Positions 2,213-50,928 of a stretch of DNA of 64,000 nt are shown one piece after another. Location of the stretch: contig NZ_JABTCG010000002.1 in the NCBI RefSeq assembly GCF_014610845.1, forward strand, positions 434,001-498,000, written 5' to 3'. Within the stretch, counting starts at the first letter, position 1; each line of letters begins with the position of its first letter. Below the pieces are notes generated by a model, which was not told the origin of the DNA, searched no databases, and was given only the letters and a program-made list of their open reading frames with translations. Source of the DNA: Maribacter arenosus. GTDB taxonomy: Bacteria; Bacteroidota; Bacteroidia; Flavobacteriales; Flavobacteriaceae. Both the position numbers and the translations under genes were made by a program.

Positions 2213-4501
2213 ATGGACAATATTTATCTTCTAATGATTATCGCATTGGCTGTTCTTGCCATTGCCGATTTGGTTGTAGGTGTCAGCAATGACGCTGTGA
2301 ATTTTCTTAACTCTGCCATTGGCTCAAAGGCCATTTCTTTTAGAACGATTATGATCGTTGCCAGTGTGGGTATTGCATTAGGTGCCATATTCTCCAGTGG
2401 TATGATGGAGGTGGCCCGAAAAGGCATTTTCAATCCCAGTGAATTCATGTTCAATGAAATCATGTTCATATTCATGGCCGTGATGATTACCGATATTCTG
2501 CTCTTGGATTTCTTCAACACCTTGGGAATGCCCACCTCGACTACCGTTTCGATAGTATTCGAACTTTTGGGGGCGGCCGTTGCCATGGCGATGATCAAAA
2601 TATGGAGTGCCGGAGGCGATTTTACCGAGGTGGTGAATTACATAAATACTTCAAAAGCCTTGGAAATTATACTAGGCATACTTCTATCCGTTGTTTTTGC
2701 CTTCACCATTGGTGCAATTGTACAATGGATCTCCCGACTTTTATTGTCCCATAATTTTGAGAAAAAAGCAAAATGGGTAGGGGCCATATTTGGCGGTATC
2801 GCCCTTTCTGCGATTACGTATTTCATCTTAATGAAAGGTATTAAAGGAACCTCCTATGCCAGTCAGCCTTTTAATTTGATAGGGGGAATGACCATAAGTG
2901 ATTTTTTAGAGGTCAAGGTATGGTACCTAATACTAGTCAATTTCCTAATATGGTCCATTCTATCCTATGTTTTAATGGTTTTGGCAAAAGTCAATATTTA
3001 TAAATTGATCATAGGGGTAGGTACTTTTGCCTTGGCACTTGCATTTGCAGGCAATGATTTGGTGAACTTTATCGGGGTGCCTATCGCCGCTTACCAATCG
3101 TATGAAGCCTGGTCAGTATCCGGAATTCCGGCAACAGAATTCAGCATGTCCATTCTCGCCACTAAAGTACCCACTCCTACCTTACTTCTATTCCTTTCTG
3201 GAATGGTCATGGTGGCCACACTATGGTTATCGAAGAAGGCGCGACATGTTGCCGATACTGAAATAAACCTTTCTAGGGAAGGGGAATCGAAAGAGCGATT
3301 CCAGCCAAATGTTCTTTCTAGGGGAATTGTGCGATTGACCATTTTAATTTCCCAAATCTCATTGCTCTTTCCTAAATCCATCAGAAAGAAAGTGGATGCC
3401 CGATTTGAAAAACCGGTACTCCATCTTTCCAGGGAAAAGACCTACGCACTTCCCGCTTTTGACATGGTACGTGCCGCAGTGAACCTGATGGTCGCGGGGA
3501 TCCTTATATCGATAGCTACCTCATACAAACTTCCTTTATCTACTACCTATGTCACGTTTATGGTAGCTATGGGCACTTCATTGGCAGATCGGGCATGGGG
3601 GCCAGAGAGTGCTGTTTATCGCGTTGCAGGGGTGTTGAATGTCATAGGGGGATGGTTCGGTACCGCCATCATCGCTTTTATTGCTTCGGGTGCCATTTTA
3701 ACCATTATCAGCTTTGGCAAAGGAGCGGCCATTGCCGTTCTGCTGTTCTCAGCCCTTCTTTTACTGATTAAAAGTTATATTTCCTACAAAAAGAAATCTA
3801 AGGAAATCAAGGCTGTTGATAGTCTGCGCAAGGCCGAAAGCAGCTCTATACAGGGCGTAATCGAAGAAAGCACCCATAATATCGCGAAGGTGATCAAACG
3901 TGCCAATAAAATCTACACCAGCTCTATAAACGGCCTGGCAAGGCAAGATCTCGTTCAATTGAAGAAGAGCAAAAAACAGGTCTCAAAATTATCAAAGGAA
4001 ATAGATGAACTAAGGGATAATCTTTTTTACTTCATAAAAAATTTGGATGAAACCGGTGTAAGGGCAAGTAACTTTTACATCAATATTTTAGGGTATTTGA
4101 CCGATATAACCCAATCGCTGGATTATATCGCCAAAATATGTCATAAGCACGTGAACAACAATCATAATAAACTCAAATACAATCAGATAAAAGAGTTGAA
4201 ACAAATCGATCAGCAGTTGGAGGCATTGTTCAATAGTACAAAGGAAGCCTTTGAAAACCGTTCTTTTGAGGAGATAGGCAATCTTCTTGGGAATAAGCAA
4301 AACCTTTTCAATATGGTCGCTGAAAAAATACAAAAACAAGTGGCAAGAACCCGGACCGAAGAATCCAGTCCAAAGAATACCACCTTATATTTTTCACTGT
4401 TATTGGAAACCAAGGATCTATTAAAAAGTACTATGAACCTTATGGAATCCTATTATCATGAACATGATAGCAGTATAGAACCTGCAAGAATAGAGGAATA
4501 A
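2213..4501 (+). CDS. Inorganic phosphate transporter, PiT family, with C-terminal PhoU/DUF47-like domain
   Basis: Low-affinity phosphate/cation symporter of the PiT family, 762 aa, longer than a typical PiT (about 500 aa) because of a C-terminal extension. The two PiT signatures are visible: GVSNDAVNFLNSA near residue 23 and FAGNDLVNFIG near residue 280. About twelve hydrophobic segments are followed, from about residue 530, by a charged helical region resembling PhoU/DUF47 proteins, which are often separate partners of PiT. The start ATG follows promoter-like boxes at 2164 and 2182. Divergent from the Na/Pi cotransporter. Confidence 0.9.
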   Translation: MDNIYLLMIIALAVLAIADLVVGVSNDAVNFLNSAIGSKAISFRTIMIVASVGIALGAIFSSGMMEVARKGIFNPSEFMFNEIMFIFMAVMITDILLLDFFNTLGMPTSTTVSIVFELLGAAVAMAMIKIWSAGGDFTEVVNYINTSKALEIILGILLSVVFAFTIGAIVQWISRLLLSHNFEKKAKWVGAIFGGIALSAITYFILMKGIKGTSYASQPFNLIGGMTISDFLEVKVWYLILVNFLIWSILSYVLMVLAKVNIYKLIIGVGTFALALAFAGNDLVNFIGVPIAAYQSYEAWSVSGIPATEFSMSILATKVPTPTLLLFLSGMVMVATLWLSKKARHVADTEINLSREGESKERFQPNVLSRGIVRLTILISQISLLFPKSIRKKVDARFEKPVLHLSREKTYALPAFDMVRAAVNLMVAGILISIATSYKLPLSTTYVTFMVAMGTSLADRAWGPESAVYRVAGVLNVIGGWFGTAIIAFIASGAILTIISFGKGAAIAVLLFSALLLLIKSYISYKKKSKEIKAVDSLRKAESSSIQGVIEESTHNIAKVIKRANKIYTSSINGLARQDLVQLKKSKKQVSKLSKEIDELRDNLFYFIKNLDETGVRASNFYINILGYLTDITQSLDYIAKICHKHVNNNHNKLKYNQIKELKQIDQQLEALFNSTKEAFENRSFEEIGNLLGNKQNLFNMVAEKIQKQVARTRTEESSPKNTTLYFSLLLETKDLLKSTMNLMESYYHEHDSSIEPARIEE

Positions 4502-4553
4502 GTCCCATTAACCCAAAGTAAATTAACTATCTTAGGGAGAAATAGCTAAATAT

Positions 4554-16396: not shown

Positions 16397-17722
16397 TTAT
16401 TTTAAGGTAATCTCCAAAATCGTATCTACCTCATCTTTTTTGTTTTTTGGAATTTCCAGAATAAGACCATAGTCGTCCAAGCGATACTTTACTTTGCTTT
16501 TGTCGGCAAAGAAAACAACGGATTGTACTTTTTCCCGAAAGGGTTGAACCAACAAAACATCCTTATCCCAATCCAAAATATGGAGGTACAACTTTTTTCC
16601 CTTCTGGGTAGAGACGCCCCAATCCTCGGCGGCCACGATTCCTTTGCGCGTACCATAAATGGTTTCCCCATGCTTGTCCATCCAATCGCCCATAGCCTTT
16701 AATGAGGCTTTGTGTTCAGGTTGGATCTCCCCATTCGGCATAGGACCAACGTTCAATAAGAGGTTTGCATTTCGGCCTGCGGCCTTCACCAGCAACTGTA
16801 CCAACTCTTTGGGCGATTTATGATTTTGGTCCTTTATATTAAAACCCCATGAACCATTGATGGTCAAACACATTTCCAAAGGCAATTCACTAATATGTGA
16901 CCCCTGCCACCCCGTAGTATTTTCACCAGGCAAATCTTGTTCGAACATTTGAAAATCCTCTCCGGGATATGGTTTTACATGATGGTTACTACCAATTAAT
17001 GCCCCAGGTTGTAAGTTATGTATCAGTTGATAGGTCTTTCCTTCTTGCCAGTCTGCATCTTTTTTATCCCACATACCATCGAACCAAATGCCCCCTATTG
17101 GCCCATAATTCGTCAGCAATTCGGTCAATTGGGTGTTCATATACTCCAGATAGTCCTCCCAGTTTCCAGATTCATCCCTTCCGGTAAACTCCTGACCGGT
17201 TCTTCCCCTAGGATAATAATCGGGATGATGCCAGTCTAACTGCGAATAATAAAAGAAGAGTTTGATATTTTGCTTGCGGCATTCCTCGGCCAGCATTTTT
17301 ATCACATCCTTACCATAAGGGGATTTATCGACGATATTATAATCCGATATCTTTGAATCATACATGGCGAATCCATCATGGTGCTTGCTGGTAATAGTGA
17401 TGTATTTCATCCCTGCATCCTTGACCATTCGAACCCATTCTGCGGCATCGAAATTTATGGGATTGAAGAAGGAAGGCAACTTTTCATACTGTTTTATGGG
17501 AATCCTTTTATTATTCATGATCCACTCGGCAATACCCTCATCACCTCCACCGCCCAAAACGCTATAAACACCCCAATGTACGAACATCCCGAACTTCGCA
17601 TCTTGGAACCATGTTCGATTGTCCAAATTTTCCTGGGTGGGTACATAACCCTCTTGGGCGTTTAAATCATTGGTCAGTGCGGAAACAGCTACTAAGAGGA
17701 ACAAAAGTCTACAGATCTTCAT
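16397..17722 (-). CDS. Alpha-L-fucosidase (GH29)
   Basis: 441 aa with a signal peptide (MKICRLLFLLVAVSA...NAQ). Family hallmarks are WFQDAKFGMFVHWGVYS near residue 38, TSKHHDGFAMYDS and the nucleophile motif GGIWFDGMWD; LLLNVGPMPNGE is typical near the end of the barrel. It hydrolyses alpha-L-fucosyl linkages of algal or host glycans. Gene ends 1 nt from the convergent Tat-exported TIM barrel. A palindrome lies about 150 bp upstream of the start. Confidence 0.93.
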   Translation of the reverse strand: MKICRLLFLLVAVSALTNDLNAQEGYVPTQENLDNRTWFQDAKFGMFVHWGVYSVLGGGGDEGIAEWIMNNKRIPIKQYEKLPSFFNPINFDAAEWVRMVKDAGMKYITITSKHHDGFAMYDSKISDYNIVDKSPYGKDVIKMLAEECRKQNIKLFFYYSQLDWHHPDYYPRGRTGQEFTGRDESGNWEDYLEYMNTQLTELLTNYGPIGGIWFDGMWDKKDADWQEGKTYQLIHNLQPGALIGSNHHVKPYPGEDFQMFEQDLPGENTTGWQGSHISELPLEMCLTINGSWGFNIKDQNHKSPKELVQLLVKAAGRNANLLLNVGPMPNGEIQPEHKASLKAMGDWMDKHGETIYGTRKGIVAAEDWGVSTQKGKKLYLHILDWDKDVLLVQPFREKVQSVVFFADKSKVKYRLDDYGLILEIPKNKKDEVDTILEITLK

Positions 17723-17870
17723 TTTTGAATTGGATTTAGTGGATTATAAACGAATATGGATATTAAATATATAAAAGCTTTTGTTAGTTCCGGTATTAAA
17801 AAGGGATGGATCTTGAATTAAAACAACCTGTATTTAACTTTCTGTTTAGAAAGATAAAACAAAAATGGTC

Positions 17871-17896
17871 GTCTAAGCGTATAGACGTACATGTAG
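17871..17896. promoter_or_regulatory. Palindromes upstream of the fucosidase
   Basis: An inverted repeat CGTCTA-N6-TAGACG (17871-17888) is followed at once by the 8-bp palindrome TACATGTA (17889-17896). It lies about 150 bp upstream of the fucosidase start and could be a regulator site; no regulator can be assigned. Confidence 0.3.
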
Positions 17897-18061
17897 GCCT
17901 GGAAATTCAGCTATCTAAACCTGGAATTTAATACGTATTATAGCGGTTTAATTTTTAGTTGGGATGTATAGGGTTTTTTAACATATTTTTTACTGTATTA
18001 TCGTTTTTAGCGACAACTTTTTACGAATTTGATTCGTATATATCATAACATTTTGTGACCT

Positions 18062-18151
18062 ATGGATAAATACACTATCATATTACTAATCTATATTGCA
18101 GCCTATGTGCTTTCTGTAGCAATAAGCCCATATTACTTTAAAAAGCAGTAA
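18062..18151 (+). CDS. Possible 29-aa single-pass membrane peptide
   Basis: ATG at 18062 opens a 29-codon frame with a charged N-terminus (MDKY), a 17-residue hydrophobic centre (TIILLIYIAAYVLSVAI) and a basic tail (YYFKKQ), the usual shape of a bacterial single-transmembrane small protein. No ribosome binding site is evident. A TAACATTTTG stretch just upstream resembles a -7 box. Short length means chance occurrence is possible. Confidence 0.3.
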   Translation: MDKYTIILLIYIAAYVLSVAISPYYFKKQ

Positions 18152-18245
18152 AGTAGGACATAGCGCTATGAGTCCATTTCCAATCATAGTCTTGATGATG
18201 GCTATACCTTTGAGTAGTTTTAGATAGATAACGATATACAAAAAT

Positions 18246-18276
18246 AAAAGCCCTGACAGTCAAATCAGGGCTTTTT
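18246..18276. terminator. Rho-independent terminator of unit C
   Basis: An 11-bp stem (18246-18256 with 18265-18275), 8-nt loop and A/T tails. As in the two other units, on the minus strand it is preceded by ACCTACTT (complement of 18281-18288). Confidence 0.75.
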
Positions 18277-18417
18277 AATTAAGTAGGTTCTTATAAATCG
18301 AATCAAACAGTCAAAAACAGTATTCTTTTGTCAATTTTGGACTGGTCAATCCCAAATACTTATTCATAGGTCAATTCATGATCTCTTTGGGTTTCAATAT
18401 GTAATCATAAATACATG
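18246..18417 (-). ncRNA. Diverged third member (unit C) of predicted tandem sRNA family
   Basis: Sequence homologous to units A and B but degraded. Shared blocks, read on the plus strand, are AAGTAGGT next to the terminator, a hairpin ATTTTGG-N10-CCCAAAT (18334-18357) with the same central mismatch, AATTCATG...TTTGGG, AATGTAA (18421) and CCTAAAT-TTGTTGTGAA upstream. The -7 box is not conserved, so it may be inactive. Ends at the terminator at 18246. Start is set by homology only. Confidence 0.3.
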
Positions 18418-18561
18418 GCGAATGTAATTCCAAGAGTCCATACACCTAAATATTTGTTGTGAATGGCATAAATAATGTAGTATAATCAGTTAAATTGTAT
18501 GGTTTGTTCGATAAAATACCAAAATTTCGATATATCCGGAGATAGCATTTTAAGAATGATG

Positions 18562-18716
18562 TAAAAAAAAACCCTTTTAACAAAGGGCTTTTTTTAGAAA
18601 AGTAGGTGAGTAAAATTTGGTACTAGCTTTTTATAGGTTTGTGTCGGTTTGGGGAAACCCACACTTTTTTTAGGTTAAGTTCATGGATTGATTTGGGGTC
18701 AACACTATCACTTAAT
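18562..18716 (-). ncRNA. Predicted small RNA, unit B
   Basis: About 155-nt transcript inferred on the minus strand: a TATCTTTA -7-like box (complement of 18724-18731), then a hairpin formed by 18641-18650 and 18655-18664, then a Rho-independent terminator (18563-18595). No ORF of useful length. Sequence is about 85% identical to unit A by eye, and one stem pair differs by a compensatory change (G-C here, A-T in A), supporting a structured RNA. Direction and ends are inferred. Confidence 0.4.
18563..18595 (-). terminator. Rho-independent terminator of unit B
   Basis: CCCTTT (18572-18577) pairs with AAAGGG (18582-18587) around TAAC, extended by long A and T runs on both sides. Confidence 0.7.
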
Positions 18717-18824
18717 TACAATGTAAAGATATGTCTCGAGGTCGATAAGCCCTAAATTATGTTGTGAACACGACCATAAATGTGGTGAAAAAATTAACGG
18801 TACGATTTCCTCGATGAATGGCAC
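18600..18824. repeat. Direct repeat copy 1 (225 bp)
   Basis: Aligns nearly gap-free with 18906-19131, from AAGTAGGT to GGCAC; only one 1-nt length difference, near the left end. Blocks such as ATTTGGGGTCAACACTATCA are identical. Covers unit B plus its upstream control region. Confidence 0.9.
18761..18774. promoter_or_regulatory. Conserved palindrome upstream of sRNA unit B
   Basis: GTTGTG-AA-CACGAC lies about 30 bp upstream of the minus-strand -7 box of unit B. It is conserved in position with a perfect version in unit A and could be an operator. Confidence 0.35.
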
Positions 18825-18865
18825 TTTTATTACGAGATGACAAACGCTAAAAAATACATTCAAAC

Positions 18866-19023
18866 TAAAAAACGCCCTTTTTTCAAAGAGCGTTTTTTTT
18901 TAGTTAAGTAGGTTTTGTAAAATTTGGTATTAGCTTTTTATAGGTTTGTGTTAGTTTGGGGAAACTCACACTTTTTTTCGGTTAAGTTCAGGCGATGATT
19001 TGGGGTCAACACTATCACTTAAT
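18866..19023 (-). ncRNA. Predicted small RNA, unit A (hflX-proximal)
   Basis: About 158-nt transcript inferred on the minus strand. TATCTTTA (complement of 19031-19038) serves as the -7 box; TTTA 21 nt further upstream could be a weak -33 element. The RNA would contain a 9-pair hairpin with one mismatch (18948-18957 with 18962-18971, GGGG/CCCC loop) and end at a strong terminator (18867-18901). No ORF. It lies downstream of hflX on the same strand but has its own promoter-like box. Could alternatively be a processed hflX 3' UTR. Confidence 0.42.
18867..18901 (-). terminator. Rho-independent terminator of unit A
   Basis: AAAAAACGC-C-CTTT pairs with AAAG-A-GCGTTTTTT with one internal mismatch and a TTTC loop; runs of six As and nine Ts flank it. 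Confidence 0.75.
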
Positions 19024-19131
19024 TACAATGTAAAGATAGCTTTCAAGGCCCAATGGCCCTAAATTATGTTGTGAACACAACCATAAATGTGGTGAAAAAA
19101 TTAACGGTACGATTTCATCGATGAACGGCAC
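18906..19131. repeat. Direct repeat copy 2 (226 bp)
   Basis: Second copy of the 18600-18824 element, offset by 307 bp. Starts with AAGTAGGT right after a terminator, as does copy 1, and ends 24 bp before the hflX stop. Confidence 0.9.
19068..19081. promoter_or_regulatory. Conserved palindrome upstream of sRNA unit A
   Basis: GTTGTG-AA-CACAAC, perfect arms, about 30 bp upstream of the minus-strand -7 box of unit A; possible operator. Confidence 0.35.
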
Positions 19132-19154
19132 TGTTCATCAACATTTTAGGCCAA

Positions 19155-20366
19155 CTAATATTGGTCCAAATGTTCTGGATAGAGAAAGTTATTGTACGGA
19201 AAACGCGTGATATGGATATCCCTGACCACATTATAGACCCTTTTACGGAATTCATCGAGGTTTTCTTTGTTTAAGGCTGAAATAAACAAAGCGTTCTCGC
19301 CTATGCGTTGCATCCAAGTACGTTTCCAATCCTCGATGGTAAAATGTTTGTTGGTTCTTTCCGTAATCAGATCATCTTCATCTATGGTTTGGTGATGGTA
19401 TTGGTCTATTTTGTTGAATACCATAATGGTCTTTTTGTCGGCACTGTCGATTTCTGCCAAAATTTTATTCACAGATTCGATGTGTTCCTCAAAATTGGGG
19501 TGTGAAATGTCGACAACATGCAGTAAAAGATCAGCTTCCCGAACTTCATCCAATGTGCTTTTGAAACTTTCGACCAACTGCGTTGGTAGTTTTCGTATAA
19601 ATCCAACGGTATCACTTAGTAAAAAGGGAAGATTGCCAATAACAACTTTTCGTACCGTGGTATCCAAAGTGGCAAAAAGTTTGTTTTCCGCAAACACATC
19701 GCTTTTGCTAATAACGTTCATTAAGGTAGATTTACCCACATTGGTATATCCAACAAGGGCGACCCTAACCAATGAGCCCCTATTGCCCCTTTGGGTTTCC
19801 ATTTGCCTATCGATTTTAGAGAGCTTTTTCTTAAGCACGGAAATTCGATCCCGTACGATACGTCTATCCGTTTCAATTTCGGTTTCCCCAGGTCCGCGCA
19901 TTCCTATCCCCCCTTTTTGTCGTTCCAAGTGGGTCCATAAACCGGTAAGTCTTGGCAATAGATATTCATATTGTGCCAACTCTACTTGGGTTCGGGAATA
20001 GCTGGTCTGGGCACGTTGTGCAAAAATGTCCAGGATAAGACTCGTGCGATCCAATATTTTACACCGCAATTGCTTTTCTATATTGCGTTGTTGTCCCGGG
20101 GATAATTCGTCATCGAAAATAACCGAACCGATCTCATGTTCATCGACAAACGCTTCGACCTCTTTCATCTTGCCACTACCGATCATCGTCTTTGGATTGG
20201 GAACGTCAATACGTTGGACAAATCGTTTAACAACTTCCCCTCCTGCCGTATAAGTAAGAAACTCCAACTCATCAAGGTATTCCTTCACCTTATCTTGGTC
20301 TTGATCTTTATGCATAACCCCAATGAGGACAACTTTTTCGTATTCTATGGATTTCTTTTCTAACAT
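19155..20366 (-). CDS. hflX: GTPase HflX
   Basis: 403 aa ribosome-associated GTPase that splits or rescues stalled ribosomes. Visible are the N-terminal HflX domain (TMIGSGKMKEVEAFV, ILDRTSLILDIFAQRA), the glycine-rich RQKGGIGMRGPGETEIETDR segment, and the G domain with GYTNVGKSTLMN (G1), DTVGFIRKLP (G3) and NKID (G4). Length is normal. Divergent from an endonuclease/phosphatase gene; followed on the same strand by the predicted sRNA units. Confidence 0.96.
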   Translation of the reverse strand: MLEKKSIEYEKVVLIGVMHKDQDQDKVKEYLDELEFLTYTAGGEVVKRFVQRIDVPNPKTMIGSGKMKEVEAFVDEHEIGSVIFDDELSPGQQRNIEKQLRCKILDRTSLILDIFAQRAQTSYSRTQVELAQYEYLLPRLTGLWTHLERQKGGIGMRGPGETEIETDRRIVRDRISVLKKKLSKIDRQMETQRGNRGSLVRVALVGYTNVGKSTLMNVISKSDVFAENKLFATLDTTVRKVVIGNLPFLLSDTVGFIRKLPTQLVESFKSTLDEVREADLLLHVVDISHPNFEEHIESVNKILAEIDSADKKTIMVFNKIDQYHHQTIDEDDLITERTNKHFTIEDWKRTWMQRIGENALFISALNKENLDEFRKRVYNVVRDIHITRFPYNNFLYPEHLDQY

Positions 20367-49371: not shown

Positions 49372-50928
49372 ATGAATTTTCGAAAATATACCCCCTTGTT
49401 TTGCTTCCTTATGGTTTCCTGTATGGTGTTGGCACAGGATATTCCTCTTGATTTTTCAATAGGGGAAAAATATAACGACAGGTATAAATATTCGAATCTT
49501 TTGACCATTTCCAACGATGGTACAGGGGGTACTTTTCTGGTCCGCTCTTATTATACCGGGGTAATCCTAAGGCCTAAGGGCTATTTGATAGAGCATTATG
49601 ACGCTAATATGCAATTGATCAATGAGTATAATTATAAGCTCAAAAATTCGAATTTGGTCGACGGCTATGTAGCCAACGGGCAGATTTATCTTATATTTTT
49701 GGATTATGACTATGATGCCTTTGCGTATGAATATTCAGTGCATCGCAGTCCTCTTTCGGGGATGAACTTCACTAGGGAATCCTTGTTGACCATCCCATCA
49801 CAAGAGGTGTCCGAACCCTTGGATAAAAACTATTACAACCGTAATTTTTCTTCCGGCTTTACCACTTCTGTTTTATTCAACGACAAGAAGAATGCCTTTG
49901 TGATCAGCACCCATTTTAAAAAGGGAAAGACCAATAAGCATTTTATCTACCTATTCAACGCAGGTTTGCAAAAAGTTGTGGAACATGATTTCTCCGCCGA
50001 GGTAGAAGAAAAGAACTATGCCTTTGAGAACGTTGCCTTTTCTACCGATTTACAAGAGGCCTATATTGTGGGTAAGGCCTATTTTAAGAAAAAAAGATTT
50101 CAGGTATCAGAACGAAAATTCCAATATGAATTGATCAAAGTATCCCAAAATGGTGCTTGGACACAGACTTTTGATGGACCAGGAAAATTCTCGGAGGCCC
50201 TGACCCCCATTATCAATAAAAACGAATTGTTATGCGTGGGGTTCTATTCGAATAGAAAGGACAATAGATATAATGGGTTGGCCTATTTCAATATAAACCC
50301 TACTACCTTAGCCATAAACTCGAGAAAATACAGTCCTTTTTCCGAGCAGTTTATGATGGATAAGTTTGGGCGGGATGAGGATAAGGTGATCAAGGATCTG
50401 GTGTTCAAAAATGTGAATGTGGCCCATGATGGTTCGATCCATTTTAATGCCGAAGAGTATTTTGTAACCTCAAGTGTACAAGCAAATTCAAGTGGTGGTC
50501 GCCTTAAGGTAACCAGATACCACCATAACGATATCGTCAGTGCCAAACTTAGTGCGGATGGCGACATGTTATGGACTAGGAACATAAACAAGGCCGAGGT
50601 AACCCAAGGCGATGGCGCCTATGCTTCCTATAGTTCGTATACCAAAGACGGCAATACGTACTTCTTTATAAGTACAGCCGCCGAAAATCCTCAAGTATTG
50701 CCAGGTGACCGATTATTGTTCAGACAAGGGTTGAGTCGAAACAGAAATGTTTTTGTCATCAAATTGGATGCCGATGGTCACTTAAGTTATAAAAAGTTGA
50801 TCGACGACAAGGATGCCCGCCTTCCCTTAATGGTCTCCACGCCCTTACTAAATAAAAGGGAAAACCAAATTGTGTTCTACGCCAAAAGGGGAAGTAAAAA
50901 GCAACTGGTTAAAGTTTCCCTTAATTAA
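49372..50928 (+). CDS. Large exported protein of unknown function
   Basis: 518 aa with signal peptide (YTPLFCFLMVSCMVLAQ). Repeated beta-rich units with patterns such as AFVISTHFKKGKTNKHF, YFKKKRFQVSERKF, NTYFFISTAAEN suggest a beta-propeller-like fold seen in Bacteroidota exported proteins. No catalytic motif. 22 nt after the hydratase gene, so possibly co-transcribed. Confidence 0.65.
   Translation: MNFRKYTPLFCFLMVSCMVLAQDIPLDFSIGEKYNDRYKYSNLLTISNDGTGGTFLVRSYYTGVILRPKGYLIEHYDANMQLINEYNYKLKNSNLVDGYVANGQIYLIFLDYDYDAFAYEYSVHRSPLSGMNFTRESLLTIPSQEVSEPLDKNYYNRNFSSGFTTSVLFNDKKNAFVISTHFKKGKTNKHFIYLFNAGLQKVVEHDFSAEVEEKNYAFENVAFSTDLQEAYIVGKAYFKKKRFQVSERKFQYELIKVSQNGAWTQTFDGPGKFSEALTPIINKNELLCVGFYSNRKDNRYNGLAYFNINPTTLAINSRKYSPFSEQFMMDKFGRDEDKVIKDLVFKNVNVAHDGSIHFNAEEYFVTSSVQANSSGGRLKVTRYHHNDIVSAKLSADGDMLWTRNINKAEVTQGDGAYASYSSYTKDGNTYFFISTAAENPQVLPGDRLLFRQGLSRNRNVFVIKLDADGHLSYKKLIDDKDARLPLMVSTPLLNKRENQIVFYAKRGSKKQLVKVSLN

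Follow-up and report, generated by a model that had tools for sequence, protein, structure and literature searches.

The stretch of DNA analysed here, referred to as the window, comprises 64,000 nt (G000:C12:434001-498000) of a 4.17-Mb source genome. Downstream of hflX, the analysis revealed three predicted transcription units on the minus strand (18241-19135, in the order B, A, C), each with an upstream site, which is degenerate in C, followed by a -10-like box and a structured RNA with ACCTACTT and a terminator. For the classification of the RNAs we used R1, a covariance model that covers the 5' domain of the RNA, was derived from 26 A/B-type units and does not include promoter sequence. The features and the evidence for them are as follows:

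19155-20366, minus strand: hflX, 403 aa (open reading frame), the upstream same-strand neighbour of the RNA units, with relatives in named flavobacteria.
19119-19126, minus strand: far-upstream conserved element GTTCATCG of unit B (same-genus unit alignment; within the conserved stretch).
19067-19096, minus strand: putative activator site of unit B, TTCACCACA-N12-TTCACAACA (exact pattern match), ending 40 nt before the RNA start.
19031-19038, minus strand: -10-like box TATCTTTA of unit B (alignment).
18867-19026, minus strand: predicted RNA of unit B, 160 nt (R1 model 102.8 bits, fold z -4.11, alignment).
18982-19022, minus strand: hairpin 1 of unit B with a CCCCAAA loop at 18999-19005 (fold, alignment).
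18948-18971, minus strand: hairpin 2 of unit B with CCCCAAA at 18955-18961 (fold, arm-swap analysis).
18906-18913, minus strand: ACCTACTT of unit B (motif count; kept in the alignment).
18867-18902, minus strand: intrinsic terminator of unit B (hairpin and T-run).
18760-18789, minus strand: putative activator site of unit A, TTCACCACA-N12-TTCACAACA (exact pattern match).
18724-18731, minus strand: -10-like box TATCTTTA of unit A (same-genus alignment).
18563-18719, minus strand: predicted RNA of unit A, 157 nt (R1 model 104.6 bits, fold z -3.43, alignment).
18675-18715, minus strand: hairpin 1 of unit A with a CCCCAAA loop at 18692-18698 (fold, alignment).
18641-18664, minus strand: hairpin 2 of unit A with CCCCAAA at 18648-18654 (fold, arm-swap analysis).
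18600-18607, minus strand: ACCTACTT of unit A (motif count).
18563-18597, minus strand: intrinsic terminator of unit A (hairpin and T-run, fold).
18455-18484, minus strand: degenerate activator site of unit C, TATACTACA-N12-TTCACAACA, with three mismatches (mismatch-tolerant pattern search).
18419-18426, minus strand: -10-like box TACATTCG of unit C (alignment with homologues; position as in A and B).
18241-18414, minus strand: predicted RNA of unit C, 174 nt, a distinct paralogue (fold z -4.38; R1 16.3 bits).
18281-18288, minus strand: ACCTACTT of unit C (motif count).

Units A and B form repeats of 219 nt (18610-18828 and 18917-19135; 90% identity, period 307), in agreement with an earlier note on this DNA that had described two copies of about 225 bp. 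Read on the minus strand, the conserved upstream stretch of both opens with GTTCATCG or ATTCATCG and continues into the 9-bp repeats of the putative activator site, while the RNAs themselves begin with GTAATTAAGTGATAG. Alignment with relatives placed the RNA starts at 18719 (A), 19026 (B) and 18414 (C), and the predicted start nucleotide is the G in GTAATTAAG, which lies 40 nt beyond the repeats. These starts lie three bases upstream of those previously proposed for A and B, and the lengths of 155-160 nt given for both transcripts hold with the predicted 157 and 160 nt. The bounds recognized earlier were likewise recovered, as ACCTACTT is followed by a hairpin and a T-run in all three units. 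The window contains five copies of ACCTACTT versus 1.21 expected, two of which are located elsewhere, outside the units.

Unit C folds unlike A and B, yet shares their 3' end composed of ACCTACTT and the terminator. It was aligned with homologues from two genomes of the same genus and from two species of Zobellia, and its upstream site is better preserved in the homologues of G005 (L134) and G008 (L130). As unit C has homologues of its own, it is an old paralogue that did not arise by decay of A or B, and its weak R1 match of 16.3 bits led us to class it as a paralogue instead of a member of R1, whose scores for A and B come from training members. Beyond unit C, the minus strand at 18058-18240 holds short open reading frames of 41 and 51 aa.

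Comparison of the predicted folds with 200 shuffles each showed that A, B and C are all more stable than every shuffled sequence. The RNAs of the family form two or three hairpins with CCCAAA loops and carry ACCUACUU ahead of the terminator at the 3' end. In hairpin 2, both sequence and register vary between species while pairing is kept. To quantify this, the arms of hairpin 2 were swapped among RNAs, using the 30 aligned units minus five that were near-identical or carried insertions (G001b, G001d, G004, G010b and L041). The mean duplex energy amounted to -6.84 kcal/mol for the RNAs' own arms versus -4.22 kcal/mol after swapping (sd 0.35), corresponding to z = -7.56 for the 25 RNAs and z = -6.13 for 15 RNAs, one per type, with none of 2000 swaps as low in either case. 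For the linker control, run on 13 units, z was -1.17, and hairpin 1, which is too conserved to inform, yielded z = -2.53 and also -1.64, the latter being equalled by 110 of the 2000 swaps. Scoring of the named structure on the MAFFT alignment resulted in a covariation score of 0.168 versus 0.107 for shuffled alignments (0/500), although two of the five measures, double-sided pair changes (42/500) and further pair types (193/500), were not clearly above the shuffles, and helix 3 was paired in just 66.1% of the alignment cells. We ascribe these weaker values to MAFFT missing the shifting register. The register shifts of hairpin 2 also account for the outcome of RNAalifold, which, applied to the MAFFT alignment of the 30 units, returned only four pairs, all of them in the terminator, and did not detect hairpins 1 and 2.

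The compensatory change between A and B that the earlier note had reported for the internal hairpin is real, with arms reading GGUUU/AAACC in 18562-18716 and AGUUU/AAACU in 18866-19023. The pair is G-C in the former and A-U in the latter, and the note possibly assigned the unit letters in reverse. The neighbouring mismatch assigned to all three units was found in A and B, where the RNA reads G.G / G.A and the plus strand C/C and T/C; for C, which folds differently and matches R1 only weakly, it was not confirmed.

The R1 search yielded 72 matches, distributed over 34 of the 397 genomes of the family and covering 23 of 237 genera with one to five matches per genome, while in a sample of 296 genomes from the order the five genomes with a match all belong to the same family, Flavobacteriaceae. 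Within the genus, 10 of 12 genomes carry matches (9/9 of the good genomes), often in tandem, as exemplified by four tandem units in G001; the source genome has one locus only. Among 80 named hflX loci, nine R1 matches were obtained at E up to 0.1, of which seven had E values no higher than 2.5e-4 (Zobellia uliginosa, Zobellia barbeyronii, a Maribacter, Muriicola jejuensis and three other Flavobacteriaceae). Six of these seven loci match by construction because they had trained the model; L045 had not. In the 30 loci examined, namely those of the 72 matches that were fetched with sequence, hflX is located within the 1.5-kb flank in 16 cases, and R1 copies without a flanking hflX may be dispersed.

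None of the known families in Rfam 15 matched the 64-kb window at gathering score, and the window contains no tRNA. When matches with E up to 10 were considered for 17700-19300, 36 were obtained, the best being BSnc120 (E 0.00057, 28.2 bits versus a gathering score of 114), along with psRNA14 (E 0.0074, 31.1 bits versus 60); as these lie over terminators and far below gathering, they were rejected as chance matches. The 6S-Flavo RNA (RF01685) was discarded as a candidate, as it gave no gathering-level match in the window and the genome's copy is found at G000:C1:1125589-1125698 (105.2 bits). A plasmid origin was dismissed as well, with no match of 18560-19135 in the plasmid collection searched. 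Rfam and a full-text search covering main texts, mostly of open journals, returned no prior description of the RNA family, and the passages covered from two papers on flavobacterial RNAs (PMC9723704, PMC2864571) do not describe R1-type RNAs. The family thus appears to be one for which no earlier description was found, although of a kind already known. The Rfp RNAs of Flavobacterium psychrophilum, e.g. Rfp18, resemble it as intergenic small RNAs of which some are conserved and structured, a likeness by their description in PMC9723704; the main text of that paper contains no mention of a LytTR link.

In the same-genus alignment, the region upstream of the RNA is as conserved as the RNA itself and contains TTCACMACA-N12-TTCACAACA, two 9-bp direct repeats placed 21 bp apart that end about 40 nt before the RNA. 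Allowing spacers of 9 to 13 bp (TTCACMACA-N{9,13}-TTCACAACA), we obtained 37 matches in the 12 genus genomes, all with a 12-bp spacer, and none in the reversed control; a 13-bp spacer was not matched in the window. Exact repeats were present upstream of 27 of the 30 loci that had been found by the RNA-only model, including 24/27 outside the genus, and the remaining three have repeats with one, two and three mismatches. In all 30 loci the repeats end 36-41 nt before the RNA. By comparison, 600 other 110-nt windows from the same loci gave one exact match and four with 1-2 mismatches, some of which may represent neighbouring units.

LytTR regulators are described as binding 9-bp direct repeats that are mostly 12 bp apart (PMC6193735), and the exact repeats of A and B share this geometry, including the position upstream of the promoter. 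By the same description, LytTR systems are also similar in having sites beside the regulator gene, but differ in their ACCnCTTAn-like repeats, compared with TTCACMACA here, and in their targets, which are protein operons. The octamer TATCTTTA, which the earlier note had also placed before several protein genes here, does stand before A and B; with five occurrences in the window versus 3.79 expected it is not enriched, so that an ordinary -10 box is the best interpretation. The copy in unit B fits, except for its last base, the sigma-A box TAnnTTTG quoted in PMC9723704. A conserved -33 element is absent from the promoters in the same-genus alignment, as would be expected if an activator were needed. 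On G000:C19, at 50017-50067 and 575381-575431, three repeats follow one another in 21-bp steps (overlapping matches), which suggests sites for more than one dimer.

Two sites in the source genome, with one and two mismatches, lie within about 700 bp of non-coding DNA between the genes of a LytTR response regulator and a TPR-HisKA_2 kinase (L161:1106-3073:- and 3788-4546:-). The regulator is composed of Response_reg (4.7e-20) and LytTR (1.6e-17) domains, and the adjacent histidine kinase of TPR, HisKA_2 and HATPase_c domains. An orthologue of the regulator with 87-94% identity was detected in 29/29 R1-positive genomes tested (of 34), while the next paralogue among the matches listed reached at most 37% identity. 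It looks as if the RNA family were switched on by one conserved two-component system.

The first site after the regulator gene precedes TTTTCATTTTCATATAGTGTTCTCGTAAA, a 29-nt core with a terminator behind it, an arrangement that looks like a second small RNA and is treated here as a candidate. With up to three mismatches, the core was found in 71/397 family genomes and 42/237 genera; most of the rows listed show no mismatch, and the reversed control gave zero in the listed genomes. Copies in the source genome are located at G000:C1:598046-598074 (L135), C1:857570-857598 (L144, L161) and C12:226131-226159, and the second RNA has no gathering-level Rfam match in L161 or L135. All 33 distinct core copies examined have upstream repeats with zero, one, two, three or four mismatches (3, 10, 14, 4 and 2 copies, respectively), whereas 85/87 control windows had six or more. 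In a sample of 149 family genomes, the regulator was present in 22/22 core-bearing genomes and the core in 11/11 R1-bearing genomes; likewise, all 34 R1-positive genomes among the 397 carry the core (lists compared by eye). Its conservation across 42 genera raises the question of which partner fixes an RNA sequence so tightly.

Short-protein genes are found behind the same type of site. In the source genome, exact repeats precede a 35-aa open reading frame (L132), which belongs to a 35-36-aa protein without Pfam match, M[ED]AQxNH...VYKNDF..GVVLL.KKLFM[LI], encoded in L132, L015, L022, L023, L112, L117, L119 and L121. One-mismatch sites precede a DUF6747 protein (3.7e-26; L137), short open reading frames (L138, L139) and a leucine-rich-repeat protein (L140). 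Two-mismatch repeats were found at tiny open reading frames of 32 and 33 aa (L142, G000:C1:482205) and at a gene for a sigma-70 family factor (region 2, 4.3e-14; L143, G000:C1:798797) that adjoins its own paralogue. At up to three mismatches the source genome has 35 sites versus 14 in the reversed control, and the weaker regulon members, those with two or more mismatches, are therefore uncertain. In L106, L105, L110, L120 and L128, a conserved protein of about 125 aa that lacks a Pfam match and a weak TPR protein are encoded behind the repeats, and TTATCGATGAAAT lies between these and the start codon.

The earlier note had interpreted the locus as three minus-strand small RNA genes, a view favoured by the promoter modules, the covariation of hairpin 2, the terminators, the lack of a conserved open reading frame and the homologues; the direct repeats, the LytTR system and the wider regulon go beyond its observations. 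With a probability of roughly 0.7, we propose from the sequence data that these three genes are switched by the LytTR regulator together with the second RNA and the short-protein genes, and that their RNAs act in trans through the CCCAAA loops. The TPR-HisKA_2 kinase would perceive a signal and relay it to the adjacent LytTR response regulator, which, upon stimulation of the kinase, would bind the repeats and cause transcription of A, B and C. The same regulator would also activate the second small RNA family and mainly short-protein genes. More tentatively, the RNAs may act in trans as several copies of one regulator and recognize UUUGGG-type sequences of target mRNAs by base pairing through their CCCAAA loops and ACCUACUU. 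On precedent, pairing with mRNA is preferred over protein binding, at odds that we consider about even.

Similar RNAs controlled by one response regulator are known from streptococci, where the regulator, CiaR, is of the OmpR type. In these csRNAs, too, each promoter of a set of similar small RNAs contains a direct repeat for the response regulator, although sequences, loops and hosts differ and csRNA targets are known, according to the published descriptions (PMC3091779, PMC4507080, PMC8186281). The present locus likewise has several similar RNAs, each behind a putative site of the same regulator (A, B and the degenerate C), with up to five R1 copies per genome. The FopS / GibS small RNAs of Bacteroides, described together with RbpB in PMC11697453, are comparable as multicopy, paralogous and family-limited RNAs of the same phylum with a shared segment. 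By that description they are set apart by a seed and structure that differ from R1 and by canonical sigma-ABfr promoters, for which the passages covered describe no activator repeat. The full-text search returned no paper on LytTR-controlled small RNAs in this group among the main texts covered, and no earlier description was found of what appears to be a LytTR switch over several RNA families. Regulatory RNA in Flavobacteriaceae is thinly mapped, and here sequence alone connects a new RNA family with both a defined switch and a candidate regulator that can be named; if true, LytTR control over sets of small RNAs, which is rare, would be seen here.

A possible, though clearly less probable, alternative is that the RNAs serve as decoys whose CCCAAA loops titrate an RNA-binding protein. 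Response regulators of the GacA type control multiple small RNAs in whose hairpin loops one short motif recurs. The decoys would place translation under two-component control, as GacA does via RsmX/Y/Z; GacA-controlled RsmX/Y/Z and CsrB-type RNAs are treated in PMC7911923. YCCAA, which forms the core of the loop motif, was counted 61 times in 26 RNAs (terminators removed, four of the 30 aligned units left out), far above the shuffles (mean 19.8, sd 3.9, largest 30). Each RNA has two to four such motifs (three or more YCCAA-type motifs in Zobellia and Maribacter-type units), and CCCAAA stays in loops while the stems are replaced across relatives. Co-regulated leaders carry the motif in sense orientation as well: the gene for the 35-36-aa protein has CCCAAA and AACCTA in its leader, as in the RNAs (ACCCCAAACC..AACCTA before the 35-aa open reading frame in L132), and two CCCAAAT stretches precede the small open reading frames of L142, whose leader holds CCCAAAT within a CCCG..CGGG hairpin. 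One motif in both RNAs and leaders is what would be expected if both bound one protein. However, the leader motif was seen in few cases and without a control count, and a common ancestry of leader and RNA would give the same picture. RsmX/Y/Z and CsrB differ in relying on repeated GGA motifs, whereas the loops here read CCCAAA and no CsrA-type partner is shown; we know of no CCCAAA-binding protein here. It is similarly doubtful, but conceivable, that the output of the LytTR system runs mostly via RNA, through two unrelated multicopy families, one with CCCAAA loops that titrate an RNA-binding protein and one with the nearly invariant 29-nt core, along with very short proteins; such protein titration would be a Gac/Rsm-like design built from different parts.

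Returning to the proposed activation by the LytTR regulator, the repeats could instead be bound by another factor, either a further LytTR protein or an unrelated activator with a shared phylogenetic range, which we regard as unlikely. A search of the source genome with the regulator gave 25 matches at E <= 0.001, so that paralogues do exist, and the co-occurrence of site and regulator is confounded by common descent. In the 149-genome sample, with an orthologue cut-off of E <= 1e-100, the exact site was present in 24 genomes and the orthologue in 25; 22 had both, two the site only (G070, G156), three the regulator only (G060, G066, G118) and 122 neither (Fisher p 5e-21, relatedness ignored). 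Against another factor stands that the site-bearing and regulator-bearing genomes form nearly identical sets and that the sites adjoin the regulator's own gene: a site with at most two mismatches lies downstream of it on the same strand in 27/29 loci, the regulator loci have 41 sites in all versus one reversed-control match, and in G087 and G106 the sites also adjoin forms of the regulator that are 69-77% identical.

That the units produce no transcript themselves and are remnants or non-functional repeats, as of a small mobile element or one duplicated in tandem, appears highly improbable: although tandem duplication with 90% identity and the decayed upstream repeat of unit C (three mismatches) would fit, the source genome has a single locus, promoter, loops and terminator are kept across 23 genera while spacers and stems change, and neither inverted-repeat ends nor a transposase were found beside the units in the region read. 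Equally improbable is that the units encode a short peptide in place of a regulatory RNA, an idea to which a sister gene with a conserved 35-aa protein behind the same type of site, and a GTG frame of at least eight codons at nt 9 in 16/26 relatives, lend some substance, but this frame ranges from 9 to 45 codons and is absent in 10/26, which does not indicate a conserved peptide, and we take it to arise incidentally from the conservation of hairpin 1. The previous observation that there is no open reading frame stands accordingly, with no ATG frame common to the units, and the homologues show a conserved stem and no coding pattern: alignment indels do not come in threes, and the conserved blocks ignore codon positions.
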